Shown here: positions 4,364-22,047 of the stretch, one piece after another
Layout of the letters: each line of letters opens with the position of its first letter
Numbering within the stretch: the stretch's first letter is position 1
Assembly (NCBI GenBank): GCA_013002175.1
Contig: JABDKP010000167.1
Coordinates: 1-42,371, forward strand
From: Ilumatobacter sp.
Lineage (GTDB): Bacteria; Actinomycetota; Acidimicrobiia; Acidimicrobiales; Ilumatobacteraceae
Reading direction: 5' to 3'
DNA: 42,371 nt
Notes under the pieces: generated by a model
Told to the model about the DNA's origin: nothing
The model's database searches: none
The model's input: the letters and a program-made list of their open reading frames with translations, nothing else
Program-made: the position numbers and the translations under genes

Positions 4364-4369
4364 TAGCAT
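4364..4369 (+). promoter_or_regulatory. -10 hexamer TAGCAT, leaderless start
   Basis: TAGCAT ends 7 nt before the ATG at 4377. The alternative ATG at 4368 lies inside this hexamer, which argues against using it. Confidence 0.45.
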
Positions 4370-4376
4370 GCCGACG

Positions 4377-4823
4377 ATGGACGATCTGCCCGTCGAGGAG
4401 TTCGACCCCTCTGCTGCCACCCGGTACATGCCGAACCCCGACTTCGTGAAGACCGCAGTGCTCGTCGACGTCGCCGAGCCCGGTGCGGTCACGGTGCTGC
4501 GGACGAGCTTCGGCGAGCAGCGAATGCGCGGCCCGTTCTACGCGGTTGCCGATGGTGCCGGCAGCTACGGCGCCGCCCAGGAGAACTTCGAAGGGACCCA
4601 TCGGCGAGACGGCCCGAACACGTGGGTGAAGCAGGATCCGGTGCTGGCATATCGGTCGGCGAAGCGCTGCATGGTGGAGACCCACATCGGCGACCACCGC
4701 GAGAGCTGCGTCGTCGCCGAGCCCGGCGACTGGGTCGTCAAGCAGCGCGACGGGGAGCTGATGGTGGTCGGTCCGGACGCGTTCGCCGAGCGTTACGTAC
4801 CCGCCGACGAGGGTGCCCGCTAG
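4377..4823 (+). CDS. PGDYG-type domain protein of unknown function
   Basis: A 148-residue soluble protein. Its C-terminal part contains EPGDWVVKQRDGELMVVGPD followed by FAERY, matching the pattern of the small PGDYG domain (PGDY-x-V, a charged turn, then P-x-x-F-x-x-x-Y). The N-terminal half (residues 20-100) has no motif I recognise. The start was set by the leaderless promoter. The gene is convergent with the giant hydrolase/CHAT gene, and the palindromic CTAG at 4820-4823 supplies the stop codons of both genes on opposite strands. Biochemical function is not established from sequence. Confidence 0.7.
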   Translation: MDDLPVEEFDPSAATRYMPNPDFVKTAVLVDVAEPGAVTVLRTSFGEQRMRGPFYAVADGAGSYGAAQENFEGTHRRDGPNTWVKQDPVLAYRSAKRCMVETHIGDHRESCVVAEPGDWVVKQRDGELMVVGPDAFAERYVPADEGAR

Positions 4824-7800
4824 CCGGACGGAAGGCCTCGTCGCAGCTCTCTGATCACTCCGAGGCCTGGCGCCTTGTCGGCGGGCAACGAACCGAAGAT
4901 CGCGATGAGCTCGTCGAGGTAGGTCCGTACCGAGTCACGCAACATGATCGTCGAGCTGATCTCGAAGGCACGCACGTAGGCATCGATCGCCCGCCGGACG
5001 TACTCCTCACTGCCGTCCCCGTCATCGAGCAACGCCATCGTCAGCAGCGTGTCACCGAGCTGTGACCGATCCCAGAAGCCGGACGCCGACGCCGAACGCT
5101 TCGTCGCGATTTCCAGCAGGTCATGGCCGATCGACAGGTGCTCGCCCCGGTCCCGCTCGGAGTCCGAGCCCCCGTATTCCAGCTGCAGCCACACGTTGGT
5201 GCTGTAGGGGTCGAGCGCGCCCTCCGGGGCGCCGAGTGCCGCGTCGGACGCTTCTTCGTACATCCGCTTGGCCCGGTCGAGCGCCTCCTTGGCCGTCTTC
5301 GGCAGCGACGATTCCAGTGTGGTGGTCGGCTCATCGTGAGCGGCCAGCACAACAGCCAGCTTCCGATACACCGACCCCAGCAGCGACAGCCGTTCCGGTG
5401 TCTCGCCGACCGCGGCGATCACCGCCTCGAGCTTCTTCGTCGCCGTCTCGAACGCGACGAGGTCTGCCGCACCGCCGGCACGGGCGGCGTCGCGCACCAG
5501 CATGTTGGCGTACTGCTCGATCGCGCGCAGTTCACCCCGGCCGTCCTTGGAGAGGAAGCATCGCTCGTACGCGTCCGCCGCCTTCTTGAAGTTGCCGACG
5601 GAGCGGTAGGCGTCGCCGATCGCCAGCGTGACATGCGCGCTGTCGAGGCGGTCGCCGCACTCCTCGACGAGCTCCTCGAGCTCCTCGCCGAGTTTCAGGA
5701 TGTAGTTGTCGTCGGCCTGGTAGGCACTGCTGCTGAGGATCTGCAGGTTCTGGATCAGCTGGTTGTCGCTGACGATCGTCGGCCTGCCCTGCCCCGGTCG
5801 TGCGCCGGTCACGAGCTGGAAGTCGGGATCGCCGTAACACTGGTATGCACCCCAGGTGTTCGACGTCACGCCAGTGACGTCGAAAGCCGCCGCCCGCGCC
5901 TTGCGCACGGCATCGCCGAAGGACTCGGCCGCGAGGAGGCATCGGTAGAGCTTGTCCGAGAACGCAGCTGCTGCCTGGTCGTCGACCTCCCAGCCGGCGA
6001 CGACGACCGCCTTCACGCCGTTCTGCAAGAGCTGTGTCGCGACCGTCGCGGCCACCTTGTGAGGCTGGCGCAGGTGCTGCGGGTTCATCCAGGATTCGAG
6101 CTTCCTGTCGGCATCGGCTGCTTCGATCCGCCCGAGATGACAGCAGTTGAGGAACACGAGGTCCGGCTGCACCGTCATCTGGCGGAAGTCGAGCGCCGTC
6201 AGCCGGTGGTGCGCTCCGGCGCCGGTGACGACGCCGCTGCGCTTCGGTTCGTCGGGCTCGTAGATGCCGTGAGCGGCGACATGGACGACGCGATACGCCG
6301 CATCGTGCAGCATGTTGTCGATGTCGACCCACTGATTGCCCGGCTCGTCGTCGGCTTTCGAGATGTGCTCGGCGACGGTCCAGCCCTCGCTCTTCAGCAG
6401 CTCGGCGACCTCGCCCGCCTCGCGGCGCGCACCGGGCAGCCGGGGATACGCGGTCGGTGGGTCGCCCACCACGAGTGCCTGGAGACCGGTTGGGCGGACC
6501 CCGCCCTGTCGGGTGACCGTGAGGCTCTGGAGTTGCCGGAGGAAGCCCGCCCGCAGGGCGAGCGCGCCGCGTGCATCACCGCCGGAGTCGCGCGCGGCGA
6601 GCAGTTCCCAGGGGAGCTGCCCCAGCTGTTCGTCGACGATCAGATGGATGTTCTCGGAGCGTCCGAGTTCGAGCTTGACGCGGTGGGGGAGGAGCAGCTC
6701 GTACAGCGTCTGCCCGATGTTCCCCTGGGCCGAGTTGTCGATCGCGGCGCTGACGTAGTCACCGATCTTGTCGAGGTCGACGTCGTGCTCGATCCGGTCG
6801 GCCTGGGCCTGGCGGGCGAGCACCGAGACGCTGATCTCGCTGATCGGCGACGGATCGTCCTCGTCCGGCTCGATCAGGCTTGCCTGCATCCGAATCCACG
6901 GGCGGCCCGAGGCATTGTGGGTCGGCGCGCCGGGACGGCCTCCTTCGCGGCTCTCGACCGACTCGTGGATCACCAGGTCGATCTCGTCGAGCAGGCCGTG
7001 GTCGATCTCGTCGTGAATCGAGCAGAGCACGCTCGCTGCGTCGTCGGCCTGTTGCTCGTACAACTCGATGAACTCGAGGTCGAACACGTCGGGGCGGTCG
7101 TCGCCGAGCTGACGCATCGCCCCCATGATCCCTTCGACGATCGCGACCATCGAGGTCTCGATGCTGAGCCCGAACCGGCCCGGTGTTCCGATCAGCACCG
7201 ACGACAGGCCGAACGTTTCGGATCGCGCGACGCCGGCTTCGATCCGCATCCGGGCGAGCCGCAACACCCCATCGGCGATCCCCTCGGTCAGGATCGACTC
7301 GGTCAGCAGACCGAACTCACCCAGTCCGACGACCAGCGCGCCGCCGGGGCAGTGCCCGTCGGGTGCGCGGACGACAACGGCCCGACCGGCATCGTCGGCA
7401 GTCAGCCCGAGTCGGTACCTGGCGTCCAGGACTCCGCCCAGCTTCCAGTCGAGAAAGCCCTCGGCTCCTTCGGCCGGCATCCGGGCGTAGTGACCGACTG
7501 CGACGGGGTACGGCGTCTGTTCGAGGCTGGTGTGGACCACCCTGACGCTGATCCGGGGGCGGCTCGCGGCCCCCGACTCCCCGCCGACCAGCATCGACAG
7601 CGCATCGTCGATGACGCGGCCGTCCTCGGTCGTCGGCGGCCGCACCGCGCCGCCCCGTGTCCCGGTCGTCGGCGAGAGCGGTTGCCGGTCGAACTCGTCG
7701 ATCGGCACGAGCTTCGGGAGCTCACCGCCGACGCCGCGGCGTGCCGGGGCCTTGTCGAGGAACGTGTCGGTCGTCTCCGCCCGCCCGAACTTGACGAGAT

Positions 7801-10800
7801 CGTCGATCGTGTCGAGCACCGTGGGGTTCGAGATCAGCTCGCCGTGGGTCGAGTCGACGAAGAACATGGGCATGTCGTCGAGCTGGCCGAGGGCGTGCGC
7901 CACGCGGCCGTCGCCCATCGCGAACTTGCCGATTCGCAGGTCCCACGTCTCGGCGCCGTTCTCCTTCGCCTCGAACTTGGCGCGGAACGGCGTGTCCTTG
8001 CCGTACCCGGCGACGTAGCAGAACCGCAGCGCATCGATGCCGTCTGCCCCGAGCTTGACGTGCGTGTCCCGGGCCAGGTTCAGCAGCTTCTCGTCGATGT
8101 GGTCGGCACCCCACTTGCCGGTGCTGTACAGATCGTTCCAGTCGTCGTCCTCGACACCCTCCGCGTACGGCAGCATCTGGTACACGCCCGGAAAGCCACC
8201 GACGATCCGTGCGACGTCGCGCTGATTGTGCTTGCGATCGATCGCCGCCAGGCCGCGCACGGCGAGCTCGCTGCCGAGCAACGTCATCGGGATCGAATAC
8301 GACCCGCGGTTGGGTGTGCCGAGCATCACCAAGCGGCCACTGGCGGCGCCGTCGACGTCGCCGAGTTCGTCCCAGCGCCCGCGATGGCCGGCGACGAACG
8401 CCCGCACGACGAGGCCGCCCATCGAGTGGGCGACGAAGTTCACGCCGCGGTTGGGATGGTCCGCCCGCAGCTTCGCGACCAACTCGTCGAGGCGCGCGGC
8501 CGATCGGAAGATGTCGTCGCGCCAGTCGTAGGGGAAGAGATGGACGTCCCAGTGCCGCGCGAGTCGGGTGATCAGCGGGACGTAGGTGCGGTTGAGGCCG
8601 AGTGGTGTGACGTCGCCGCCGGCGTCGAACGCCAACTCGGCCAGACCGCCGCGGGTCAGGCGCAGCGCGTCGACCCAGATCGTGCGACCGTTCACCGCGA
8701 GGTGCGAACCCATGATGCCCGGCAGCACGATCACCGCATCGCGCTGGCCGTTCGGAGCGAGCGCCGTGTCGGCCACACCGCCGGTGAGTGCGCCGATCTT
8801 CTTGCGGATCGTGTCGGGGAGCGACTTGACCCCGTCGATGATCGCCTCGACCGACGTCGACTCGGCGACCTTGGCGATCTCGGCCTCGGGGTCGGTCTCG
8901 GACTCGGGGATCTCGGGTGTCGTCCGGGCGTCCTCGTCGGCGGACAACCACGTGAGCAACTGACGGGTGGCGCGCGGGTCGGTCCAGAACGTGCTGTGGT
9001 TGACGCCTCGGGCTGCGTCGAGCACGAGGCGCTGGCCCGGGCGTACCTGGAAGTTGCCGGTGCGCACGTACGGGCTGGCGGTCGGCACGATGCGGTCGTT
9101 GCGCTGTTGGCCGAAGTACATGTCGAGGCCGTCGTCGATCTTGGACTGCAGGAAGCCGGCGGTCGCGGCGGGCTCGTACTCGGCGGCGATCGATCGAAGC
9201 ACGATCTCGGGCGACGTCGTGGCCTTGTTCAGCTCGCTGAGATAGTCCCCGTCCGGCTGCATCGCCACGAGCCCTTCGAGCCCGGGCAGCGCGCCCTTGA
9301 ACACGATGTCGGCGAGCATCTCGAGCACGAGTGCGAACCCATCGGTGCCGGGGAAATTGCCGACGAAGTTCGTGACCGCGTCCAGCAGGCCGGACGGCCG
9401 GTTCGGATCCGCCATCGGCGTCCCGCCGTTCGGTGAGGCGACGAAGACGATCGACCGGATGTCGATGTTCGACCCTGCGGTCAGGCGGGCCAGTTCACGC
9501 GCGACGAGTCCGCCGCGGGAGTGGGCGAGGATGTCGAGGTGCAGGTCGTGGCCTTCGAGCCGACCGAGCAGTTCCTCGGCATTGTCCCGCGGATTCGGGG
9601 TGAGCGTCGGATGGTCGTACGCGATGATCCGGTCGTCGTACGCCGCACTGAGGCGACGCACGGTCGCCTCGGGGAACCCGAAGGACCCGTGGATCGATCC
9701 CATGAAGCCGTGGACGACGAGCAGCGTTCGATCCTCACCGTCGAAGTGGGTGAGGTCGGGGACCTCGACGAGCTGCGTGCGGTAGTTCGACGGCGTCCAC
9801 GTCCGCAGGCCGGCCGGACTCTTGCGCTGCTCGTATGCGCCGACGGCGGCCTTCGTCGCCGCGCCGGCAGCCTTGCGGAGCCCCTTGATCGCGATCACCC
9901 GCAGCTTGCGGCGGACCAGATTCGTGATGCGTCCACGACTTCCCGGGGGCGCGAGTGTGGCTGCGAGCGCGACCTCGTCCGCGTCGCCGTCCGGGATGAA
10001 CCAGCCGTACTGACCGTTCTCCTCGACCAAGACGACACGCGCCTCGTCGGCGTCCGAGCGCCCCAGCTCGACGACGAGCTCGCCAGGCTCGTCCCCACCG
10101 CCATCGGCACCCCGGCCGCCGCTGCGCCGCTGCTCGACCTCGTGCACGGTTGCTTCCGCGACGACCTCGAAGCGGACGGGTTCCTGCTCGGCGGGCTGGT
10201 GGTGCGCCAACCTGGCGGACAGGTCGTCGATCGCGCCGCCCCGCGACGTTCCGCCCCCACCCCATTCCAGCTTGACGTTGAGGTTCTCCTCCCGGATGTC
10301 GACGCCGTTCGAGCCACGGCCGCGTGACCCGCGCCGCGGCGTCGACGACTGCTTCGACGACGACGACTTCTTCGCTGACGACTTCTTCGCTGACGACTTC
10401 TTCGTCGACTTCTTCGCTGACGACGGCGCGTCACCGTCGGTGGCCGTTCCGAACCGCAGCTCGACCGGCAACTCGTCGGCGGACGGTGGCGTCACACCGA
10501 TCGAACCGGCGCGCTGGGTGATGATGTCGGTGTCGTCCGTGAAATGGATCGGGACCGACGGGAAGTGGCTTCGGATCTTCTGCAGGGCGTCGGCGTCGGG
10601 GTGCTTGAACTTCGACCCGTCGGTGCAGATCAGGATGTTCGCCGGCCTGATCAGATCCAAGAGGTCGTCGGTCATGTTCTGGCGGCTGCCGTGATGTGAC
10701 AGCTTGAACAGGTCGACATCCAGCTTGTCGACCCCCCGATCGTCCAGGAGCCGCTTGATCGTGTCTTCGAGTACCCGTGCGTACGCGTCGCCGGTCAGCA

Positions 10801-11473
10801 ACAGGCTGGCGCCATCGACCTCGAGCAGGAACGCGATGCTCGAGCCGTTGGCCGCGCTGCCGTCCTTGCCGAACACGCCGGCGGCCCGCGTCCCGTCGTC
10901 GTCGGCGTCGTCGTCGAACGCGTCGAAGAGGTCCTTCAACGGGTCGCCGCGGGTCGGCTTCGGCCACTTCTTCAGCAGCCGCTCGAGCCGGTCGCGTGAC
11001 GGTGACAGCAGCGTGCACCGGGCCCCGCCGGGCATGCCGGGGAGCTCGAAGACGCCCGCCTCGGGCACGACGATGGCCTTGCCGTCGACGACCGGGTTGC
11101 GCTTCTGCGGCGGGATGAGCTCGTCGAGCGCGTCGCCCTGTCGAGGCCCGCGCGATCCTCCCTCGGTGTTGACCAACTCGTCGATCTGGTCGCGCCCGTT
11201 GAACCAGATGTTCTCGGTTCGCAGCCGATCCTGCTCGATCGCCTCGATCACGCCCTGGATGTGATCGAGGTCGATGTGCGTGACGACGACGATGTCGAAC
11301 TCGGTCGGCTGGTCGTCCGTCTCCGCGAGGTACCGACCGAGCCCCTCGTCGAAGCCGCTCTTGAGCCCGCCGTCGATCAGGATCCGGTGCGGACGGTCGC
11401 CATTGTCGCCGTACTCGACGACGAGGCAGTCACCGCACTTCGCAGGAAGCGCACGGAGGGTGACCGCACTCAC
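4820..11473 (-). CDS. giant fusion: MBL fold, two alpha/beta-hydrolases, M17-N-like, CHAT protease, TPR
   Basis: A 2217-residue uninterrupted frame. Domains in order: (1) metallo-beta-lactamase fold, ComEC-like, residues 1-330, with HxDxDH (His66, Asp68, Asp70, His71), LTGD and SHHGS (His260-261); (2) Lys/Ser/Arg-rich linker, about 350-390; (3) unassigned 390-570; (4) alpha/beta-hydrolase, about 575-840, oxyanion HGFMGS, nucleophile AHSRGG (Ser652), Asp793, His826; (5) second hydrolase, LCAT/PGAP1-like, about 905-1225, PGIMGS, AHSMGG (Ser1017), His1210; (6) about 1305-1480, resembling the macro-like N-terminal domain of M17 aminopeptidases (GALVVGLGE) without the peptidase half; (7) CHAT domain, about 1588-1890, VDEQLGQLPWELL, AAHG (His1735) and NCCHLG (Cys1778); (8) TPR-like helices from about 1945. 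The GTG at 11473 overlaps the patatin stop by 4 nt (GTGA); further upstream frame overlaps that gene and was rejected. No signal peptide, so cytosolic. Function unproven; defence or lysis is inferred. Confidence 0.88.
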   Translation of the reverse strand: MSAVTLRALPAKCGDCLVVEYGDNGDRPHRILIDGGLKSGFDEGLGRYLAETDDQPTEFDIVVVTHIDLDHIQGVIEAIEQDRLRTENIWFNGRDQIDELVNTEGGSRGPRQGDALDELIPPQKRNPVVDGKAIVVPEAGVFELPGMPGGARCTLLSPSRDRLERLLKKWPKPTRGDPLKDLFDAFDDDADDDGTRAAGVFGKDGSAANGSSIAFLLEVDGASLLLTGDAYARVLEDTIKRLLDDRGVDKLDVDLFKLSHHGSRQNMTDDLLDLIRPANILICTDGSKFKHPDADALQKIRSHFPSVPIHFTDDTDIITQRAGSIGVTPPSADELPVELRFGTATDGDAPSSAKKSTKKSSAKKSSAKKSSSSKQSSTPRRGSRGRGSNGVDIREENLNVKLEWGGGGTSRGGAIDDLSARLAHHQPAEQEPVRFEVVAEATVHEVEQRRSGGRGADGGGDEPGELVVELGRSDADEARVVLVEENGQYGWFIPDGDADEVALAATLAPPGSRGRITNLVRRKLRVIAIKGLRKAAGAATKAAVGAYEQRKSPAGLRTWTPSNYRTQLVEVPDLTHFDGEDRTLLVVHGFMGSIHGSFGFPEATVRRLSAAYDDRIIAYDHPTLTPNPRDNAEELLGRLEGHDLHLDILAHSRGGLVARELARLTAGSNIDIRSIVFVASPNGGTPMADPNRPSGLLDAVTNFVGNFPGTDGFALVLEMLADIVFKGALPGLEGLVAMQPDGDYLSELNKATTSPEIVLRSIAAEYEPAATAGFLQSKIDDGLDMYFGQQRNDRIVPTASPYVRTGNFQVRPGQRLVLDAARGVNHSTFWTDPRATRQLLTWLSADEDARTTPEIPESETDPEAEIAKVAESTSVEAIIDGVKSLPDTIRKKIGALTGGVADTALAPNGQRDAVIVLPGIMGSHLAVNGRTIWVDALRLTRGGLAELAFDAGGDVTPLGLNRTYVPLITRLARHWDVHLFPYDWRDDIFRSAARLDELVAKLRADHPNRGVNFVAHSMGGLVVRAFVAGHRGRWDELGDVDGAASGRLVMLGTPNRGSYSIPMTLLGSELAVRGLAAIDRKHNQRDVARIVGGFPGVYQMLPYAEGVEDDDWNDLYSTGKWGADHIDEKLLNLARDTHVKLGADGIDALRFCYVAGYGKDTPFRAKFEAKENGAETWDLRIGKFAMGDGRVAHALGQLDDMPMFFVDSTHGELISNPTVLDTIDDLVKFGRAETTDTFLDKAPARRGVGGELPKLVPIDEFDRQPLSPTTGTRGGAVRPPTTEDGRVIDDALSMLVGGESGAASRPRISVRVVHTSLEQTPYPVAVGHYARMPAEGAEGFLDWKLGGVLDARYRLGLTADDAGRAVVVRAPDGHCPGGALVVGLGEFGLLTESILTEGIADGVLRLARMRIEAGVARSETFGLSSVLIGTPGRFGLSIETSMVAIVEGIMGAMRQLGDDRPDVFDLEFIELYEQQADDAASVLCSIHDEIDHGLLDEIDLVIHESVESREGGRPGAPTHNASGRPWIRMQASLIEPDEDDPSPISEISVSVLARQAQADRIEHDVDLDKIGDYVSAAIDNSAQGNIGQTLYELLLPHRVKLELGRSENIHLIVDEQLGQLPWELLAARDSGGDARGALALRAGFLRQLQSLTVTRQGGVRPTGLQALVVGDPPTAYPRLPGARREAGEVAELLKSEGWTVAEHISKADDEPGNQWVDIDNMLHDAAYRVVHVAAHGIYEPDEPKRSGVVTGAGAHHRLTALDFRQMTVQPDLVFLNCCHLGRIEAADADRKLESWMNPQHLRQPHKVAATVATQLLQNGVKAVVVAGWEVDDQAAAAFSDKLYRCLLAAESFGDAVRKARAAAFDVTGVTSNTWGAYQCYGDPDFQLVTGARPGQGRPTIVSDNQLIQNLQILSSSAYQADDNYILKLGEELEELVEECGDRLDSAHVTLAIGDAYRSVGNFKKAADAYERCFLSKDGRGELRAIEQYANMLVRDAARAGGAADLVAFETATKKLEAVIAAVGETPERLSLLGSVYRKLAVVLAAHDEPTTTLESSLPKTAKEALDRAKRMYEEASDAALGAPEGALDPYSTNVWLQLEYGGSDSERDRGEHLSIGHDLLEIATKRSASASGFWDRSQLGDTLLTMALLDDGDGSEEYVRRAIDAYVRAFEISSTIMLRDSVRTYLDELIAIFGSLPADKAPGLGVIRELRRGLPSG
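10362..10424 (-). repeat. in-frame 15-bp tandem repeats encoding a KKSSA linker
   Basis: Two exact 15-bp units (10362-10376 and 10377-10391), a third with two changes (10392-10406) and a partial fourth encode the repeated Ser-Ala-Lys-Lys-Ser linker behind the MBL domain of the giant protein. Gain or loss of a unit keeps the frame. Confidence 0.75.
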
Positions 11474-12963
11474 GCCCCACCCCCGCCGGTCTCGCCGCGC
11501 GCCAATCGGGTGAAGCGGGCGCGGTCGACCGAGCGGGTCATGTCCCCGTGTCCGAAGATCACGTGCATGTTCGCCATCGCCAGCATGTAGCCGTGCTCCA
11601 GCAACGAGGCGCACACCGCGGTGCCGAGCGGCTTCAGCGTCGTCGCCACGGCGGACGACGCATCGGCGATCTTCTTCCACTCCGCAGCCGACAGGCCATA
11701 GCCGTCGAGGAAGCCGCGGGCCTCGTCCGCCCAGCGGTTCTTGTCGCCAGGGGTCCATCCGGGCTTGGCGGTGAAGATGTCGACCAACCGATACGGGCTG
11801 TCCTTGATCTGGACGAAGACGCCGTCGAGGTCGTTGTCGTCGTCGATGAACGAACGGCCGAGGGCTTGGCGGCGATGTGAGGTCGACACGTCGTACTGCA
11901 CGTCCTTGGAGCGGATCAGTGAGTCCAGCTCGAATCGCAACCCGCCGCTGGGCATCGGCCGCAGACTGTTCCAGTCGGACGACGCGTTGACCACGACGAG
12001 TTGGCGCGCCCCGTTGGCCTGGGCGTCGCCGAGCCCCCGCCACCGCCCGGCGCGGTTTCCGAACCCGTACTCCCAGCTGTCGGCCATGTTGTCGTACACG
12101 CCGCCGTCGACGATCACGATCCGGTCGACGGTGACGTCGCCGTGCGGCGGGTGGTCGTCAGGGGTGAGCGTGCCCGGCGTCAGGCTGAGCGCGTCGAGGC
12201 CGACCACCCGGGCCCGGAACGCGCCCGGCACGCACGCCGATGCCTGGACCGCCGTCGACAACGGCACCGATGCGGGCCGGGTCGTGCCGCCGAACTCCCA
12301 GCCGTAGACCATCCGGTTGCTGAAGTAGAACGTGGTCCCGCCCTGCATGTCGGTGGTGCAGATCACGTGGTGCACGCTGAGATCGCGGTCCCGTTGGTCG
12401 GCGAGGCTGGTCCGGGCATCGCCGAGCAGTTCCTTGTCGATCGCCCGCTCGGTGGCTGCGGAACGCCGCGAGAACAACCACAACGTCACCGCTCCGAACG
12501 TCAGGAACAACGCGAACCCGACCCCCACGACGACCGGCGCCTCGAGAATGCCGGCGACCACCGCGACGAGCAGCGCGATCGCGGCGAGGGCGATGCTCGC
12601 GAGCAGCGCCCGCAGGTACCACTTCGTCGCGGGTGCGCCGCCCTGGAGGATGCCGCGCTCTGCGATCGACTTCACCGTTCGGGCGATGTGCGCCTCGATC
12701 TCGGCGGCGGGTGCCGTGCCGAAGTCCGGGCCGATCATCACTGCGCCGTTCGCGATCGAACCTCCGGACACCGAACCGATCGAGGTCGTCCGTTCACGGA
12801 GACCGGCGTCGGCAACCGCGAGCAGCGCGCCCAGGCCGAAGACCGTGGCCCGATGACCACCGCCGGACAACGTGATCCCGACATCGCGCGTGCCCGGACC
12901 GGGACCCGGGTCGTTCGCGGGCGCGGCGTCGGCACCGGGTGCCGGATCGTCGGATGTGCTCAT
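11470..12963 (-). CDS. patatin-like phospholipase with two inserted membrane helices
   Basis: A 497-residue patatin-family serine lipase. The oxyanion loop GGGHRA (residues 34-39), the nucleophile elbow SVSGGS (Ser66) and the catalytic DGG (Asp286, in IVIVDGGVYDN) give the Ser-Asp dyad of phospholipase A. Between Ser66 and Asp286 sit two strongly hydrophobic segments (about 118-140 and 143-164), an unusual insertion that would tether the enzyme to the membrane. The C-terminal 200 residues are unassigned. The ATG at 12963 has AGGAAG about 10 nt upstream; 50 extra upstream codons overlap the previous gene and were rejected. It lies 52 nt after the peptidase gene and overlaps the giant gene by 4 nt, so the three form one operon. 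Confidence 0.88.
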   Translation of the reverse strand: MSTSDDPAPGADAAPANDPGPGPGTRDVGITLSGGGHRATVFGLGALLAVADAGLRERTTSIGSVSGGSIANGAVMIGPDFGTAPAAEIEAHIARTVKSIAERGILQGGAPATKWYLRALLASIALAAIALLVAVVAGILEAPVVVGVGFALFLTFGAVTLWLFSRRSAATERAIDKELLGDARTSLADQRDRDLSVHHVICTTDMQGGTTFYFSNRMVYGWEFGGTTRPASVPLSTAVQASACVPGAFRARVVGLDALSLTPGTLTPDDHPPHGDVTVDRIVIVDGGVYDNMADSWEYGFGNRAGRWRGLGDAQANGARQLVVVNASSDWNSLRPMPSGGLRFELDSLIRSKDVQYDVSTSHRRQALGRSFIDDDNDLDGVFVQIKDSPYRLVDIFTAKPGWTPGDKNRWADEARGFLDGYGLSAAEWKKIADASSAVATTLKPLGTAVCASLLEHGYMLAMANMHVIFGHGDMTRSVDRARFTRLARGETGGGGA

Positions 12964-13015: not shown

Positions 13016-14137
13016 CTACTCGATCGGCATGCCGTCGAACACCGACAGAACGTCCATGTCGTCCGGATCGAACTCGTCGTCCGCGTCTGCAACGGCACCG
13101 TGCATCGCTGCACCGCGGGTGCCGGGCGCCGCCGTGACTGCGATGTGCTTCTTCTCGCCCATCAGCGCCGTCCATGTCTTCGGTCCGACTTCCCCGTCGG
13201 TGCCGAGGCCGGCTGCCGCCTGGAATTGGGTGACGACGGTCTGCGTCGCGGGGCCGTAGGTGCCGTCCCGGTTGCCGCCGGTGTCGTTCAGGAGCCCGCG
13301 ATTGATCAGCGTCACCTGGAGCACACGGGCGTGCGCGCCCTTGTCGCCGGGCACCACGATCTGCAGGAGGGCGCTCCATGACTGCGGGCCGACGATGCCG
13401 TCCACATCCAGCCCGTTGTCGCTCTGGAACGATTCGACGGTCGGTCGGAGCTCCGCAGCGTACGTGCCGGTCCGGCTCGACGCAGCGTCTTCCAGACGGC
13501 CGCGGGCGATCAATGCCTCGATCAGCACTTCTGCGCCGGCGCCGCTGTCGCCCGGCTTGACGCGGTACGCCGGCGTCAACGACGTCGGCGCGCTCGCGCC
13601 GGCCGCGCTCGACGAATCGGCGGACCCACCGTCACCACTGCTGCTGCTCCCACCGCCACCGCCACCGCTCCATGGCGGACGACCCCACGCCGGGTTGTTC
13701 TCGTACGACCGTCGACTGCGTTCCAGCTCGACCGGCTGGACGTGCCAGGGCTCGCTGTTGACGTTCTCGAACGTCTGGAGGTCGAACCGGGCACAGTTGT
13801 CGCGGACGAAACCCATGTCACCGGTGAGATCGGCGGCGAGTCCGATCTCGTGCATCGAACGGCCGGGTGGCGCCGCGGCGGCCACGTTCGGCAGCCGGCT
13901 CCATCGTTTCCCGTCGTAGGAGTACTTCCCGTTCGGGTCGGGCACGTGGCGGCTGAGGAACAGCTGCAATTGCTGTGTCTCGGGCCGCAGGCCCTGCCCC
14001 AGCCCGACCTTGCCGCCGGATGCCTCGATCAGCCCGCGTACCCGCTCCTGCATCGTCGGATGCATGCCTTTGAACGTGTTCCACGACGTGATCTTCGCAA
14101 GTGACGCCCGGCCCGCATAGGTCGGATAATCAGTCAT
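13016..14137 (-). CDS. M15 peptidase with two peptidoglycan-binding repeats, no signal peptide
   Basis: A 373-residue protein. The N-terminal domain (1-140) has the full zinc D-Ala-D-Ala peptidase signature SxHxxGxAxD (Ser94, His96, Gly99, Ala101, Asp103) and the ExxH pair (Glu129, His132 in EPWH), as in VanY-type and phage endolysin M15 enzymes. A Gly/Ser-rich linker (about 145-185) leads to two PG_binding_1-like repeats (about 195-260 and 265-330), each with the pattern LIxRGxL...GTYxxxxxxxVxxFQ...G.vGPxxWxALL. The acidic C-terminal tail is unassigned. The N-terminus (MTDYPTYAGRASLAK) is not a Sec or Tat signal, odd for a wall enzyme. GGAGG lies 8 nt before the ATG. It is the first gene of the operon with the patatin and giant CHAT genes; the 245 nt upstream carry its promoter, but I could not place one convincingly. 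Confidence 0.88.
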   Translation of the reverse strand: MTDYPTYAGRASLAKITSWNTFKGMHPTMQERVRGLIEASGGKVGLGQGLRPETQQLQLFLSRHVPDPNGKYSYDGKRWSRLPNVAAAAPPGRSMHEIGLAADLTGDMGFVRDNCARFDLQTFENVNSEPWHVQPVELERSRRSYENNPAWGRPPWSGGGGGGSSSSGDGGSADSSSAAGASAPTSLTPAYRVKPGDSGAGAEVLIEALIARGRLEDAASSRTGTYAAELRPTVESFQSDNGLDVDGIVGPQSWSALLQIVVPGDKGAHARVLQVTLINRGLLNDTGGNRDGTYGPATQTVVTQFQAAAGLGTDGEVGPKTWTALMGEKKHIAVTAAPGTRGAAMHGAVADADDEFDPDDMDVLSVFDGMPIE

Positions 14138-15639: not shown

Positions 15640-15813
15640 CCGGTGATCCTGGCACTCGTTCCGCACGCTCGATGAACCGGACCGTACGCCGTGTTCACGA
15701 TCGCAGGCGATCGGGAACCGAATGCCCTCCGGCATCGTCCAAATCGCAGAAGGGAACACGTACGGTTGATCCCAGGCACGCCGTTGACGACGTGCGAACC
15801 CCCGGAGGAAACG

Positions 15814-18800
15814 ATGAACGGCTCACGGTCGAGGCGGTTGGTGGCCTTGTGTGCAGCGCTCGCGATGGTCGCGACCGCATGCTGGGGAGGCGGCGGGTCC
15901 GACGACGCCGGCCCGACGACGGTCGCCGATTCGGTTCCGGGCGGAGGCACCGCACCGACCAACATCCCCACGGTCGACACGCCCGGCCTCGTCAGCGGCG
16001 CCGTCGACAGCGGCGTCGCGCATCTCGGCCTGCGCCTCAGCGAGGGAGTGGCCACGGAACGAGCGGTGGAACCGGTGCGCGTCGTCGACGGGGTACCGCT
16101 GACCGACGCCGAGATCACCACCGTACTGGACCGTCTCCCCGAATGGGACGTGCCGCCGACCGACGTCAAGGAGTTCAACCGCCCGCCCGAATCGCTGGGA
16201 CCCCCGCTGGTCGGTGACACCGTCGACGCTCCGTTCCCACCGGCGCCGGATGCGCCGTCGGTGCCGAACGCCACCGCGGACGGACCGCTCGAGGTGCTGC
16301 GGATCCAGCCGGACGGCGAGATCGACGTCGCGCCGTTCCTGTCGGTGACGTTCAACGAGCCGATGGTCCCGCTGGCCACACTCGAACAACTCGACGTCGC
16401 CGACGTGCCGGCGGTCATCACACCGTCGCTCGATGATCTCGGCGTCGACGGTCGGTGGCGGTGGATCGGGACACGGACGCTGCGGTTCGAGGTGATCCCG
16501 GGCGACATCGACCGGTTACCCGCCGCGACGGAGTACACGATCGAGATCCCCGAGGGAACCACGTCGGCGAACGGTGCGGTGCTCGCCGAGGGCTTCACCT
16601 GGACGTTCGCCACGCCGCCGCCCGAGGTGCTCGGCGTCGCGGGGCTCGGCGACTCGATGGACCTCGACCCGGTGTTCGTCGCGACGTTCGACCAGCGCGT
16701 CGAACCCACGGCGATCCTCGATGTCATCCGATTCGAGGCGGGCGACGTCGACGGTGTCCGGCTCGCGACCGATGCGGAAGTCGAGGCCGATCCGGTGGCG
16801 CAGCGGGCCCTCGACCACGCGCTGCCCGAGCGCGCCGTGGCCTTCGTGCCCACGTCCACGCTGGCGCCGGACACCAACGTGACGATCGACATCGGGCCCG
16901 GCGTCCCGTCGCTGGAAGGGCCGCGCACCAACCCTGCCGAGGACACCTTCGACGGTGAGACCTACGGGCCGCTGAAGCTCGATCGCGAACAGTGCGGCGG
17001 TGGCAACCTCGTGCCGTATCAGCCGTTCAACATCCGGTTCTCCAACGAACTGGACGCCGATGCCTTCCGCGCCGAGTACGTGCGGATCGAGCCGGCGTTG
17101 CCCGGGTTCCGCGTCGAGGTCGTCGGTCGCAGCCTGGAGCTGCAGGGGGCAACCGCCGGCAACACCGACTACACGGTCACGCTGTCCGGCGACATCCAGG
17201 ACACGTTCGGCCAGACGCTCGGACAGGAGATCGCCGTCCGCTGCCGGGTCGGACCGGCCGAACCATTCCTGATCGGGCCGAGCCAGCGGTTCGTCACGAC
17301 CGACCCGTTCGTCGAGGCGCCCGGCCTGACGTACACGACGGTCAACCACGACGATCTCCGCGTCACCGCGTGGCAGGTCAGCCCCGAGCAGTACGGCGAG
17401 TACGTCCGCCACCTCGAGCAGTACTACTCCGACACTCGCCCGCCGGATCCCGACTGGCCCGTCGTGCTGGACACCGAGGTCGCGATCGACGCCGACCCGG
17501 ACGTCGTCGTCGAGACGGTCGTCGATCTCACGGCGGCGTTCGAGGCATCGAACGGCCCGATCGTCGTCCGTACCGAGGTGATCCCCGCTCCCGGCCCGCG
17601 CGACGACGACTTCTGGCGCAACCAGCCGGTCCTCACGTGGGTCCAACAGACGACGCTCGGCGTCGACGCCTTCGTGGGCGAGGACGAGTTGCTGATCTGG
17701 ACGACCGACCTCCTGACGGGGGATCCGGTCGGCGACGTCGACGTCCGGCTGCTCGGGGCGAACCGGACGGTCACGACCGACGCCGACGGCCTCGCCCGCA
17801 CGGAGCTGTCGTCGTCCGCGATCACCGGGCTCGTCGCAACGGTCGGTGACCGCTCTGCGATGCTCGCGACGCCGTTCTCGGACGGGTGGAAGCAGCGCAC
17901 GCGCAACAAGGAGAGCCGCTGGTACGTCACCGACGATCGGGGCGTGTACCGACCAGGCGAGACGATGCGGATCGCCGGCTTCGTCCGCGAACTGGACGCT
18001 GACGCGCAGCTCGTGTTGTTCGGCGGCGACGCCGGCGTCGACTACACGGTCCACGATCCGCAGGGCAACGAGATCGCCACGGGGTCGTCTCGGGTCAACG
18101 CGCTCGGCGGGTTCAATGCCTCGATCGACATCCCCGAGGAGGCCAACACCGGGTTCGCGTCGGTCGACTTCCGCCTGACCGGCGTGCCCTCGGTCAACGG
18201 CAACCGCGCGTTCCACCAGTTCCAGATCCAGGACTTCCGCACGCCCGAGTTCGAGGTCACCGCCCGCACGGAAACGCCGGCGCCCCACTACGTCGTCGAG
18301 CCGGCCACGGTCGCCGTCGACGCCGCATACTTCGCCGGTGGGCCGCTCCCCGATGCCGAGGTGAACTGGCTGGTGTCGACCACGGACACGACGTACCGGC
18401 CACCGAACTGGGACGAGTACAACTTCGGCATCTGGATCCCGTGGTGGTACGACTTCGGCGGGTTCGACGGCGGGTTCTTCGGTGGCGATGTCGCCGACGA
18501 GGCCGACTTCGTTTCCGAGGAGCCGTGCTTCGACTGCGGACCGTTCGACAATCCCCGGTTCGAGGAGTTCACCGGGCGCACCGATGCGAACGGCAGCCAC
18601 TACCTCCGGATCGACTTCACCGACACGCCGCCGCCGACCGACGACGAGGGGCAGCCGGAGACGGTCGACCAGCCGACCAACGTGGTCGCCGAGGCGACCG
18701 TGTTCGACGTCAACCGGCAGGCGTTCGCCGGTCGCACGACGTTGCTCGTGCACCCGGCGCAGTACTACGTGGGTCTGCGCAGCGACCGCTCGTTCGTCGT

Positions 18801-21800
18801 GAAGGGCGAGCCGCTCCTGATCGACACGACCGTCGTCGACGTCGACGGCAACGTCGTGGCCGGCCGTACGGTCACCGTGACGGTCGGCCGGGTGGAGAGT
18901 TCGTATTCGAGCGGCCGCTACGTCGAGGAGCTGGTCGACGCCGAGACGTGCACGATCACCTCGACCGACGCCGTCGGCAACGGCTCGCCCGACCCGGCGA
19001 TGCGGTGCGAATTCACCCCCGAGATCGGCGGGCAGTACCAGGTGACCGCACTCGTCAAGGACGACGACGGCCGGCAGAACCGTGCCGTCCTCACGCAGTG
19101 GGTGAGTGGGTCGACCGCCCGCCCGACGCGCGATGTCGACCAGGAGCAGGTCACGATCGTTCCCGACCGCGAGACGTACGCCCCGGGCGAGTCGGCCGAG
19201 CTGCTGGTGCAGGCACCGTTCGCCCCGGCGTCGGGCATCGTCACCGTGGTCCGGGCCGGCATCGAGTCGACCGAGGTCTTCGATGCTCCGGACGGCAGCG
19301 CCGTGCTGACGATCCCGATCGCCGACGACGACGTCCCGAACCTGCGTGTGCGCGTCGACATGGTGGGGGCCTCGCCGCGGGCCGCCGACGACGGCACCCC
19401 GCTCCCGGACGCGCCGCTCCGGCCGGCCTTCGCGGTGGCCGAGATCGACCTCTCGATTCCCCCGGCCGCGCGGACGCTCGACGTCGTCCCGACGCCGGCC
19501 GCCCCGACCACGGAACCGGGAGCCGCGACGACCGTCACGGTGGCGGTCGCCGACGCCGACGGTGGGCCTGTCGCCGGGGCCGGTGTCGTGCTGATCGCCG
19601 TCGACGAAGCGGTGCTGTCGCTGACGGGCTACGAGCTGCTCGACCCGTTGGGCATCTTCTACCAGGACGTGTGGACCAACCTGTCAGCCGAGCTGATCCG
19701 CTCGAGCATCGTCCTCGCCGACCCCGAGCTCCTCGATCCCGACGTGTCGACCACCGACGTCGCGGTCGCAGACGGCGGCGGGGTCGACGATGCATTCGCC
19801 GATGAAGCCTCTGCCGAAGCGGCGCCGACGGCGTCGCAACGGTCGTCGGCCGGCGGGACCGACAGCGCGATCGATGTGCGCGCCGACTTCGACGCGCTCG
19901 CCGTGTTCGCGCCGGACGAGACGACCGGCGCCGACGGCACGGTCACCGTTGCCATCGATCTGCCGGACAACCTCACCCGCTACCGGCTGATGGCTGTTGC
20001 GGTCGACGGCGCCGACCGGTTCGGCTCCGGCGAGTCGACGCTCACCGCCCGCCTGCCGGTGATGGTCCGCCCCTCGGCGCCGCGCTTCCTCAACTTCGGC
20101 GACACGTTCGAACTGCCGGTCGTCGTGCAGAACCAGACGGACGCGGCGGTGGACGTCGACGTCGTCGTGCAGGCTGCGAACCTCGTGCTGACTGCCGACC
20201 AGGGCAAGCGGGTGACCGTGCCGGCCAACGACCGCGTCGAGGTGCGCTTCGCGGCCGCTGCGCAGGACGTCGGCACGGCGCGCATCCGCGTGGCCGGGGT
20301 TTCCGGCGCGCATGCCGATGCCGCCGCAGTGGAGCTACCGGTGTACACGCCGGCCACCGCCGAAGCGTTCGCCACCTACGGCGTGATCGACGACGCCGGC
20401 CCGATCGCCCAACCGCTGCTCGCGCCAGATGGTGTGTTCCCGCAGTTCGGGGGACTCGAGATCAGTACGTCGTCGACCGCGCTGCAGGCGCTCACCGACG
20501 CCGTCCTCTACCTGCACGACTACCGGTACGACTCCGCCGACGGCTACGCCTCACGGCTGATGGCAGTCGCCGCGCTGCGCGACGTGCTCGACGCGTTCGA
20601 TGCCGACGGCCTGCCGGGCGCAAGCGAGCTGAACGCCCGCGTCGCAGAGGACATCGACCGGTTGCAGGCACTGCAGAACGGCGACGGCGGGTTCCCGTAC
20701 TGGCAGCGCGGTCGCGAGTCGATCCCGTGGGTGTCGGTGCACGCGACGCACGCACTCGTGCTCGCCAAGGACGCCGGCTACCGCGTCGACGGCAACGTGC
20801 TGGCGTTCGCGCTCGACCACCTCCGCAACATCGAGGAATTCATCCCGGCGGACTACTCGCAGAAGACGAAGGACGCGATCAACGCCTACGCGCTGTACGT
20901 CCGGGACCTTGCCGGCGAACGCGATCCGGCGAAGGCCGAGGCGCTGTATGCGCGGGGCGCGGAGAGCACGCTCGAGCTCGATTCGATCGCCCAACTCTGG
21001 CCGTCGATCGACGACACGTCGATGCGCTCGAAGATCGCAACCACCATCGACAACGCCGCGGTCGAGACCGCCGGCGCGGCGACGTTCGCCACGAGCTACG
21101 GCGAGGACGCCTATCTGATCGCTCACTCCGACCGTCGGACCGACGGCATCGTGCTCGGCGCGCTCGTCAGTGAGGCGCCGACGAGCGACGTGATCCCCAA
21201 GGTCGTCGCCGGGCTGCTCGGCAACCAGGTCCGCGGCCGCTGGAACAACGTGCAGGAGAACTCGTTCATCCTGCTGGCGCTGAACGACTACTTCGACACG
21301 TTCGAGTCGGTCGACCCCGACTTCGTCGCCCGGGCCTGGCTCGGCGAGACGTACGCCGTCGAGGCCGAGTTCCGCGGTCGGTCGACGGAGACGTCCCTGA
21401 CGACGGTCCCGATGGCCGATCTGATCCAGGCGACGGCACCGGCCGATGGCGGCGGCGTCGACGGCGAGCCGGTCGCCGACGGCACCGACCTGATCGTCGC
21501 GAAAGACGGCCCCGGGCGGTTGTACTACCGGCTGGGATTGCGGTACGCGCCCGACGACCTGCAGCTCGACCCGCGCGACGAAGGGTTCGTCGTCGAGCGG
21601 ATCTACGAAGCGGTCGACGATCCCGGTGACGTCACCCGCCTCGCCGACGGGTCGTGGCAGATCGCGGCGGGGGCGAGCGTGCGGGTGCGGCTGACGATGG
21701 TGGCCGACGCACGGCGGACACACGTCGCGCTGATCGATCCGCTGCCGGCCGGCCTCGAGGCGGTCAACCCGGCCTTCGCCACGTCGACGACGTTCGCGCC

Positions 21801-22047
21801 GGAGGACGGCGCTGACGCGGCCCGCTCCGGTTGGTGGTGGTGGACCTGGTATCAGCACCAGAACCTGCGCGACGACCGGGCCGAGGCCTACACCAGCTAC
21901 CTGCCCGGCGGCACGTACGAGTACACGTACATCGCGCGGGCGACAACGCCTGGCACGTTCGTCGTGCCGCCGACGCGGGCCGAGGAGATCTACGCACCCG
22001 AGGTGTTCGGCCGGTCCGCCTCCGACACCGTCATCGTCGCCACCTGA
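15814..22047 (+). CDS. bacterial alpha-2-macroglobulin family lipoprotein, thioester motif lost
   Basis: A 2077-residue protein beginning with a lipoprotein signal (RRLVALCAALAMVATAC, lipidated Cys23) and an acidic Ser/Gly linker, so it should be anchored outside the membrane. Family hallmarks: the MG-domain array with GVYRPGETMRIAG (about residue 710), the A2M entry PDNLTRYRLMAVAVDG (about 1385), the alpha-helical TED region (about 1550-1850) and the terminal PGTFVVPPTRAEEIYAPEVFGR. Where thioester members carry CxEQ, this protein reads RYDSADGYASRLM (about 1571-1583): the reactive Cys-Gln pair is absent. An aromatic, Gly-rich insertion lies around residues 865-900. These proteins trap proteases; thioester-less ones would act only by entrapment. 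No pbpC (PBP1C) partner is adjacent. GGAGGAAACG directly precedes the ATG. Confidence 0.9.
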   Translation: MNGSRSRRLVALCAALAMVATACWGGGGSDDAGPTTVADSVPGGGTAPTNIPTVDTPGLVSGAVDSGVAHLGLRLSEGVATERAVEPVRVVDGVPLTDAEITTVLDRLPEWDVPPTDVKEFNRPPESLGPPLVGDTVDAPFPPAPDAPSVPNATADGPLEVLRIQPDGEIDVAPFLSVTFNEPMVPLATLEQLDVADVPAVITPSLDDLGVDGRWRWIGTRTLRFEVIPGDIDRLPAATEYTIEIPEGTTSANGAVLAEGFTWTFATPPPEVLGVAGLGDSMDLDPVFVATFDQRVEPTAILDVIRFEAGDVDGVRLATDAEVEADPVAQRALDHALPERAVAFVPTSTLAPDTNVTIDIGPGVPSLEGPRTNPAEDTFDGETYGPLKLDREQCGGGNLVPYQPFNIRFSNELDADAFRAEYVRIEPALPGFRVEVVGRSLELQGATAGNTDYTVTLSGDIQDTFGQTLGQEIAVRCRVGPAEPFLIGPSQRFVTTDPFVEAPGLTYTTVNHDDLRVTAWQVSPEQYGEYVRHLEQYYSDTRPPDPDWPVVLDTEVAIDADPDVVVETVVDLTAAFEASNGPIVVRTEVIPAPGPRDDDFWRNQPVLTWVQQTTLGVDAFVGEDELLIWTTDLLTGDPVGDVDVRLLGANRTVTTDADGLARTELSSSAITGLVATVGDRSAMLATPFSDGWKQRTRNKESRWYVTDDRGVYRPGETMRIAGFVRELDADAQLVLFGGDAGVDYTVHDPQGNEIATGSSRVNALGGFNASIDIPEEANTGFASVDFRLTGVPSVNGNRAFHQFQIQDFRTPEFEVTARTETPAPHYVVEPATVAVDAAYFAGGPLPDAEVNWLVSTTDTTYRPPNWDEYNFGIWIPWWYDFGGFDGGFFGGDVADEADFVSEEPCFDCGPFDNPRFEEFTGRTDANGSHYLRIDFTDTPPPTDDEGQPETVDQPTNVVAEATVFDVNRQAFAGRTTLLVHPAQYYVGLRSDRSFVVKGEPLLIDTTVVDVDGNVVAGRTVTVTVGRVESSYSSGRYVEELVDAETCTITSTDAVGNGSPDPAMRCEFTPEIGGQYQVTALVKDDDGRQNRAVLTQWVSGSTARPTRDVDQEQVTIVPDRETYAPGESAELLVQAPFAPASGIVTVVRAGIESTEVFDAPDGSAVLTIPIADDDVPNLRVRVDMVGASPRAADDGTPLPDAPLRPAFAVAEIDLSIPPAARTLDVVPTPAAPTTEPGAATTVTVAVADADGGPVAGAGVVLIAVDEAVLSLTGYELLDPLGIFYQDVWTNLSAELIRSSIVLADPELLDPDVSTTDVAVADGGGVDDAFADEASAEAAPTASQRSSAGGTDSAIDVRADFDALAVFAPDETTGADGTVTVAIDLPDNLTRYRLMAVAVDGADRFGSGESTLTARLPVMVRPSAPRFLNFGDTFELPVVVQNQTDAAVDVDVVVQAANLVLTADQGKRVTVPANDRVEVRFAAAAQDVGTARIRVAGVSGAHADAAAVELPVYTPATAEAFATYGVIDDAGPIAQPLLAPDGVFPQFGGLEISTSSTALQALTDAVLYLHDYRYDSADGYASRLMAVAALRDVLDAFDADGLPGASELNARVAEDIDRLQALQNGDGGFPYWQRGRESIPWVSVHATHALVLAKDAGYRVDGNVLAFALDHLRNIEEFIPADYSQKTKDAINAYALYVRDLAGERDPAKAEALYARGAESTLELDSIAQLWPSIDDTSMRSKIATTIDNAAVETAGAATFATSYGEDAYLIAHSDRRTDGIVLGALVSEAPTSDVIPKVVAGLLGNQVRGRWNNVQENSFILLALNDYFDTFESVDPDFVARAWLGETYAVEAEFRGRSTETSLTTVPMADLIQATAPADGGGVDGEPVADGTDLIVAKDGPGRLYYRLGLRYAPDDLQLDPRDEGFVVERIYEAVDDPGDVTRLADGSWQIAAGASVRVRLTMVADARRTHVALIDPLPAGLEAVNPAFATSTTFAPEDGADAARSGWWWWTWYQHQNLRDDRAEAYTSYLPGGTYEYTYIARATTPGTFVVPPTRAEEIYAPEVFGRSASDTVIVAT

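Follow-up and report, generated by a model that had tools for sequence, protein, structure and literature searches.

The 42,371-nucleotide stretch of Ilumatobacter sp. contig JABDKP010000167.1 analysed here (the window; GenBank assembly GCA_013002175.1) carries on its minus strand a gene (4820..11473) for a single protein of 2217 amino acids. Its order of parts, from the N-terminus, is a metallo-beta-lactamase (MBL) domain of the ComEC/LmuA/Avs1a type, a beta-rich region, two alpha/beta hydrolases, a macro-like domain, a CHAT protease and TPR-S repeats. This giant protein could be an all-in-one immune protein of the abortive-infection kind, in which CHAT would ungate the fused MBL pro-nuclease while the lipases attack the membrane, and we judge the chances that this reading is right to be evenly balanced. 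A bolder picture remains tentative, one that we would sooner doubt than assert: a self-contained death machine that unites in one chain a sensor, an initiating protease, a pro-nuclease under gate control and two phospholipases. It would be the first case seen of an MBL pro-nuclease fused to its own caspase-type activator, and an outlier revealing a bacteria-wide lipase-CHAT family driven by signals derived from nicotinamide adenine dinucleotide (NAD).

A single gene on the minus strand

The frame runs from a GTG start at 11473 to a stop at 4820 with no internal stops, and stop codons interrupt the plus strand across the same interval. Frame length alone is weak evidence, because an antisense frame of 1437 codons occupies the same place at a GC content of ~69%. 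That the gene is real is shown by the family matches of its product (DUF7379 at 2.1e-47, CHAT at 8.1e-33 and TPR-S at 3.3e-11 in Pfam; LmuA at 4.7e-61 in PADLOC) and by full-length homologues, and the single unbroken frame described in an earlier reading of the letters alone (the sequence-only reading) therefore stands, on the minus strand. Homologues came from one scan of genome contigs that returned 559 stretches, 496 of them coding for a relative; the 80 best were retained, representing 79 distinct loci, and these were aligned with the window protein and 4 plasmid copies (84 sequences). A chance frame is ruled out by the domain matches and the 79 loci, despite the long antisense frame, and a fusion artefact by two relatives (loci L029 and L030) that carry the same continuous frame. 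Phage origin was also rejected, only one phage record having matched, and over the MBL alone. Upstream the frame stays open as far as 12043; the start at 11473 shares 4 nucleotides with the stop of the preceding patatin gene, and the L030 orthologue starts with ATG at the aligned position.

Folds and catalytic residues of the giant protein

The N-terminal domain (residues 1-330, 10484..11473; this and all following domains are on the minus strand) has the metallo-beta-lactamase fold of the ComEC/LmuA/Avs1a/CanC type, with H66, D68, D70, H71, D229 and H261, which we take from the fold family to be metal ligands. It aligns to PADLOC LmuA over nearly its full length and to Avs1a in part, and in fold it matches ComEC. 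Tuck et al. (2025; PMC12799240, in the sections available) describe MBL pro-nucleases in which two disordered insertions act as gates and are cut by trypsin-like or caspase partners. Two stretches of low model confidence lie at the corresponding places of the window MBL. Putative gating loop 1 (residues ~98-112, 11138..11182) has a mean predicted local distance difference test score (pLDDT) of 55 at residues 101-110 and falls in an insertion region common to caspase- and protease-linked MBLs. Putative gating loop 2 (residues ~173-205, 10859..10957) has a mean pLDDT of 40-57 at residues 171-210, below 50 at 188-205, and between the HxDxDH and D204/N209 regions the window MBL has ~60 more profile positions than ComEC. 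A low-complexity linker rich in Ser and Lys follows (residues ~346-400, 10274..10438; pLDDT ~30 at 351-380), and then a beta-rich region with no fold assigned that is partly common to homologues (residues ~400-560, 9794..10276).

The two hydrolases match phospholipases in fold. Hydrolase 1 (DUF7379; residues 575-855, 8909..9751) has the triad S652/D793/H826, and in the 84-sequence alignment S652 is found in 80 of 80 sequences (4 gaps) and D793 and H826 in 82 of 82 each (2 gaps each). Hydrolase 2 (residues 905-1235, 7769..8761) resembles lysosomal phospholipase A2 (PLA2), LCAT and Tle4; its catalytic residues are S1017 and H1210, probably with D1188, and these are kept in 79, 83 and 83 of the 84 sequences for S1017, D1188 and H1210, respectively, so that an LCAT/lysosomal PLA2-like fold is combined here with conserved Ser, Asp and His. 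In five relatives (L035, L075, L077, L086 and L106) S1017 is replaced by C, A or G, and the CHAT dyad is retained there. The macro-like domain (residues ~1302-1502, 6968..7570; limits taken from the secondary structure of the model, not from Foldseek ranges) had been called M17-N-like from sequence, which is borne out by Foldseek matches to leucyl aminopeptidases and macro domains (7y1s, 2dx6, 1yd9, 5m3i), by a profile match to cytosol aminopeptidase (E = 1.2e-4) and by conservation, with G1383 and G1385 each in 84/84 sequences. A whole aminopeptidase at this position was rejected; only the N-terminal, macro-like half matches.

The CHAT domain (residues 1523-1889, 5807..6907) has the caspase-superfamily fold, matching separase and Craspase, and its His/Cys dyad is invariant (H1735 84/84, C1778 84/84). 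The TPR-S repeats (residues 1903-2217, 4820..5767), a putative sensor, match Pfam TPR-S over residues 1962-2078 with 44.1 bits against a cut-off of 27.6, and helices extend up to residue 2102. Every residue that the sequence-only reading had named is present (H66xDxD70H71, S259HHGS, S652/D793/H826, S1017/H1210 and H1735/C1778). That reading had given as grounds for dropping it a structure in which catalytic residues do not meet in an active site. Nothing of the kind appears at the level of fold and secondary structure in the predicted models. Their folds correspond to those of genuine hydrolases and of proteases of the caspase superfamily, and DSSP places S652 and S1017 each between strand and helix, as in a nucleophile elbow, H1735 at the end of one strand and C1778 at that of another. 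The alignments behind these models held 69 of the 79 loci after filtering (85% identity, at least 1500 amino acids), with row L091 in the wrong frame.

A widespread family and a rare MBL fusion

Without the MBL, the family is ~1800 amino acids long and spans 12 phylum labels (submitters' titles) among the sequences examined. Plasmid records matching some part of the protein number 61, and the long matches among the 40 listed are from Paracoccus, Ensifer and Azotobacter. In a tree built by a quick method (row L091 mis-framed), phyla are partly intermixed, a Gallionellaceae row for instance grouping with one of Nitrospirota at support 100, and the window clusters with two metagenome-assembled genomes of Ilumatobacteraceae, adjacent to an Acidobacteriota homologue (L031) without an MBL. 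The order of domains had been thought to be without a described counterpart; the core order without MBL belongs to a widespread family and is not unique. The other outcome named in advance as telling against the claim, orthologues that are separate housekeeping enzymes, was absent from the 79 loci and 4 plasmid copies. A literature search found no paper on this architecture, which is weak evidence of absence as subscription papers lay mostly outside the search.

Smaller relatives have fewer modules: a Rhizobium protein consists of hydrolase 2, the macro-like domain and CHAT, and a short homologue made of the macro-like domain, CHAT and TPR-S is flanked by TIR-annotated genes, one of them a TIR-nSTAND1-WD40 gene. 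In two of the 84 homologues (L044 and L050, Geobacteraceae) a TIR domain is fused C-terminally after TPR-S, in the last ~350 residues. This fusion would unite a sensor and its likely signal maker in one chain, and it suggests that TPR-S may sense an NAD-derived signal.

The MBL fusion is confined to 3 of the 84 aligned sequences, the window and its two Ilumatobacteraceae relatives (L029 and L030), and these three genomes, at ~75% identity, retain the residues of the MBL motifs as well as the two loop regions. Among 150 genomes drawn from the host's family, 3 match over residues 1-600, the two other than the window probably being those of L029 and L030; 3 more match the MBL only (L128-L130), with no telling match among their scanned neighbours. 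Separate MBL genes beside the MBL-less giants were considered and rejected, with only one partial match among 1049 neighbouring open reading frames (ORFs; L074, position -3). Viral sequences searched with just the three fusion MBLs yielded 36 pattern matches and zero relatives.

Standalone MBL relatives on plasmids (MBL comparisons excluded L116 and L121-L123) are found mostly in Canu-like (caspase-nuclease) or ABC-three-component operons: of ten whose surroundings were retrieved, five lie beside a caspase gene, two before ABC-three-component genes, one before a serine-protease gene and two elsewhere. Caspase-hypothetical-MBL operons, a setting that Tuck et al. describe, occur in Sinorhizobium, Bradyrhizobium, Rhizobium and Streptomyces; in Bosea the relative is flanked by two caspases, and TIR genes lie close by. 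The Runella relative precedes a serine-protease gene, and those of Providencia and Enterococcus precede ABC-three-component genes, a label that for L132 rests on gene order, the record's annotation being hypothetical. The remaining two are an Enterobacter relative among hypothetical proteins and an unannotated E. coli record. Five of the plasmid loci (L108, L109, L110, L112 and L134, the last in the order caspase-MBL-caspase) resemble Canu systems carried on plasmids; in the L108, L109, L110 and L112 operons the middle, hypothetical protein gave no Pfam match.

Genes beside the family members

Neighbouring genes were taken from a simple longest-frame caller, and the upstream and downstream sets scanned with Pfam include only the closest ORF that was complete, on the strand of the giant and no more than 450 nucleotides away. 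Pfam matches among the 47 upstream neighbours, window included, are caspase C14 (10), clostripain (2) and patatin (2, the window's and that of L030). Of the 75 loci that have a neighbour upstream, 10 have a caspase gene directly before the giant (position -1, same strand, gap of 15-82 nucleotides), and just one caspase gene was found elsewhere (+2), a difference between near and far positions with p = 1.5e-5. Downstream, where 45 of 48 neighbours were used (L072, L093 and L100 excluded), the matches are TIR_2 (7), PG_binding_1 (3), M15_3 (2), nSTAND1 (1) and SLATT (1), and PADLOC at 1e-10 recognised six models, each in a single family member, including ThsB at 2.2e-48. Over all 84 loci there are 28 TIR genes in 17 loci and 13 extra TPR-S genes in 12. 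The Azotobacter plasmid copy lies near type I restriction genes; neighbours of the Paracoccus plasmid copies are mostly metabolic. Peptidoglycan-binding genes recur beside giants (3 of the 45 downstream, for example in L081, M15 in 2, and the window gene at 13016-14137), as if cell-wall cutting belonged to the output.

The window operon and the host genome

The giant gene is the last of a putative operon of three on the minus strand. The first gene (13016..14137, start codon chosen) encodes a VanY/M15-like peptidase with peptidoglycan-binding repeats (PG_binding_1 3.8e-23; VanY 5.2e-4, below cut-off) and no signal peptide by eye, and has a counterpart in L030 at 59% identity. The second (11470..12963, start codon chosen) encodes a patatin-like phospholipase (Pfam Patatin 6.3e-10) with a hydrophobic insert, seen by eye, and is kept in L029 (78%) and L030 (77%). 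The order peptidase, patatin, giant recurs in L030; L029 has the patatin gene upstream, where its contig ends. Divergent from and upstream of the operon lies a plus-strand gene for a bacterial alpha-2-macroglobulin of ~2100 amino acids (15691-22047). At the other end, a convergent plus-strand frame of 151 amino acids (4368-4823) shares 4 nucleotides with the end of the giant gene; it is 73% identical in L029 and has a sub-threshold Pfam match only. Other nearby genes encode an ABC transporter and regulators. Elsewhere in the host genome there is a second CHAT protein (L002, 419 amino acids, contig C32) with a weak match to sigma-70 region 4 at its C-terminus (E = 0.0099), and a separate TPR-S protein (L004, contig C57) that also matches the Pfam MAP3K TRAFs-binding domain.

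Proposed mechanism and alternative explanations

For the giant to work as an abortive-infection protein, an NAD-derived signal of the sort made by TIR enzymes would be bound by TPR-S, the macro-like part or both, upon which the protein would assemble and its CHAT protease would be switched on. TPR-S, as Burroughs and Aravind reportedly set out in 2020, senses NAD-derived signals. CHAT would then cut both MBL gating loops and perhaps the linker, the MBL would become a DNase, and the lipases may be freed; damage to DNA and membrane, to which the patatin and the peptidoglycan peptidase of the operon would contribute, would kill or arrest the infected cell. In relatives without an MBL, CHAT would act on the neighbouring caspase or another pro-enzyme. 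TIR domains make NAD-derived signals with an ADP-ribose moiety, a point for which PMC8195603 cites Burroughs and Aravind, and the TIR products N7-cADPR and His-ADPR are activators of a caspase-like protease and of macro-domain effectors, respectively, according to the available sections of PMC12847820. Rarity (3/150 genomes), near-invariant catalytic residues, the folds and the neighbouring genes were counted in favour of an immune function. Both functional proposals of the sequence-only reading survive in part. The single-polypeptide conflict machine is supported by the caspase, TIR, TPR-S and STAND neighbours of some loci, the two TIR fusions and the plasmid copy near restriction genes, all of which are the context of relatives rather than of the window. 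The release of modules by CHAT cleavage is recast as loop gating, to which the low-confidence stretches of the window MBL model may point.

Several observations weigh against an immune, self-gating protein. Ten further ORFs of the window gave no PADLOC match at 1e-5, the operon contains no TIR or caspase gene, the host genome (89% complete) gave no C14 match, and its one TIR gene lies on another contig (C5). A caspase, TIR or TPR-S gene occurs in 27 of the 84 loci and is missing from the other 57. Compared with far neighbours in the same 10 kb flanks, rather than with random loci, TIR and TPR-S genes are not significantly closer (Fisher p = 0.3 each), so their association may be with defence islands in general. 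The basis for loop gating is homology together with low pLDDT, in a model whose underlying alignment put the N-termini of MBL-less rows into MBL columns. Finally, cis activation of a fused nuclease is without precedent in the literature examined, and in the trypsin-linked pairs of Tuck et al. the nuclease is always encoded by a separate gene (PMC12799240, in the sections available).

One alternative, which we consider rather unlikely, keeps the immune function and makes the lipases the executioners, with the MBL acquired late in one lineage and free of gating by CHAT, and CHAT aimed at other targets such as a partner caspase. It draws on the 81 of 84 homologues that have no MBL and keep lipases and CHAT (truncated contigs excepted), on the caspase next door in 10 loci and on the long Ser/Lys-rich linker that sets the MBL apart. 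The retention of motif residues and both loop regions in the three fusion genomes argues against a mere appendage, however, as does the fact that 8 of the 10 standalone MBL relatives adjoin a caspase, serine-protease or ABC-three-component gene.

The immune function itself may be doubted. Scanning the window genes revealed no second recognised defence system, save generic ATPase matches of the ABC-transporter gene (mad3 1.3e-29), and with the alpha-2-macroglobulin, ABC transporter and regulator genes nearby, and the ordinary metabolic neighbours of many relatives such as the Paracoccus plasmid copies, the giant could be an enzyme of stress- or development-linked autolysis or of envelope remodelling. 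Patchy presence, the interleaving of phyla and the plasmid copies fit this poorly, as do the TIR, caspase, STAND or restriction neighbours of some relatives, and we regard it as improbable. No more credible is a version in which the MBL would hydrolyse, as a phosphodiesterase, the head groups of lipids or teichoic acids, so that the protein and its operon, with patatin and M15-like peptidase, would dismantle the envelope and not DNA.

Relation to known systems and significance

The nearest described system is Canu (KaeCanABC; PMC12799240, in the sections available), which pairs a caspase-superfamily protease with an MBL pro-nuclease bearing two disordered loops, as the window protein with its two putative gating loops may do; MBL homologues at ~32-35% identity to the window MBL occur in the caspase-hypothetical-MBL operons described above. 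Canu consists of separate canA, canB and canC genes with a C14 caspase, whereas the window has nuclease and protease in one polypeptide, CHAT in place of a C14 caspase with an Ig-like fold, and in addition two lipases, a macro-like domain and TPR-S. The window protein is best described as a variant of known conflict-system parts that would work like a Canu pair plus a CHAT effector, outside the definition of Canu by separate genes and C14. Its MBL also recalls the pro-nucleases of Avs1, Lamassu and Hachiman (HamM), through its alignment to LmuA and in part to Avs1a, but the window protein was found to have neither a trypsin-like domain nor any part of STAND, SMC or helicase type. In contrast to the TPR-CHAT protease (Csx29) of type III-E Craspase and to SAVED-CHAT, its TPR-S is C-terminal and hydrolases are fused to it.

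The pairing of a caspase-superfamily domain with an alpha/beta hydrolase is shared with the MoxR-vWA VMAP ternary systems, in which, according to the available part of PMC7159879, every caspase domain is accompanied by a neighbouring gene for an alpha/beta hydrolase. There the two are separate genes accompanied by MoxR and vWA parts, none of which were seen in the window, whereas here they are fused. In Thoeris (PMC12847820, in the sections available) signals made by TIR proteins switch on a caspase-like protease in type IV and a macro-domain effector in type II, and some relatives of the window protein have TIR adjacent or fused; unlike type IV, the window operon has no TIR gene. Kinship with TPR-S conflict proteins follows from the Pfam TPR-S match.

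With putative pro-nuclease and protease in one molecule, the gating idea is directly testable in the window protein. If the abortive-infection reading is true, this family of ~1800 amino acids, whose lipase triad and protease dyad do not vary in the 84 sequences, which covers 12 phylum labels and which in some loci adjoins caspase or TIR genes, would bring phospholipases under protease control into bacterial cell death as a class of effectors not described before. It would also provide a counterpart in bacteria to the DNA fragmentation and membrane loss that caspases trigger.

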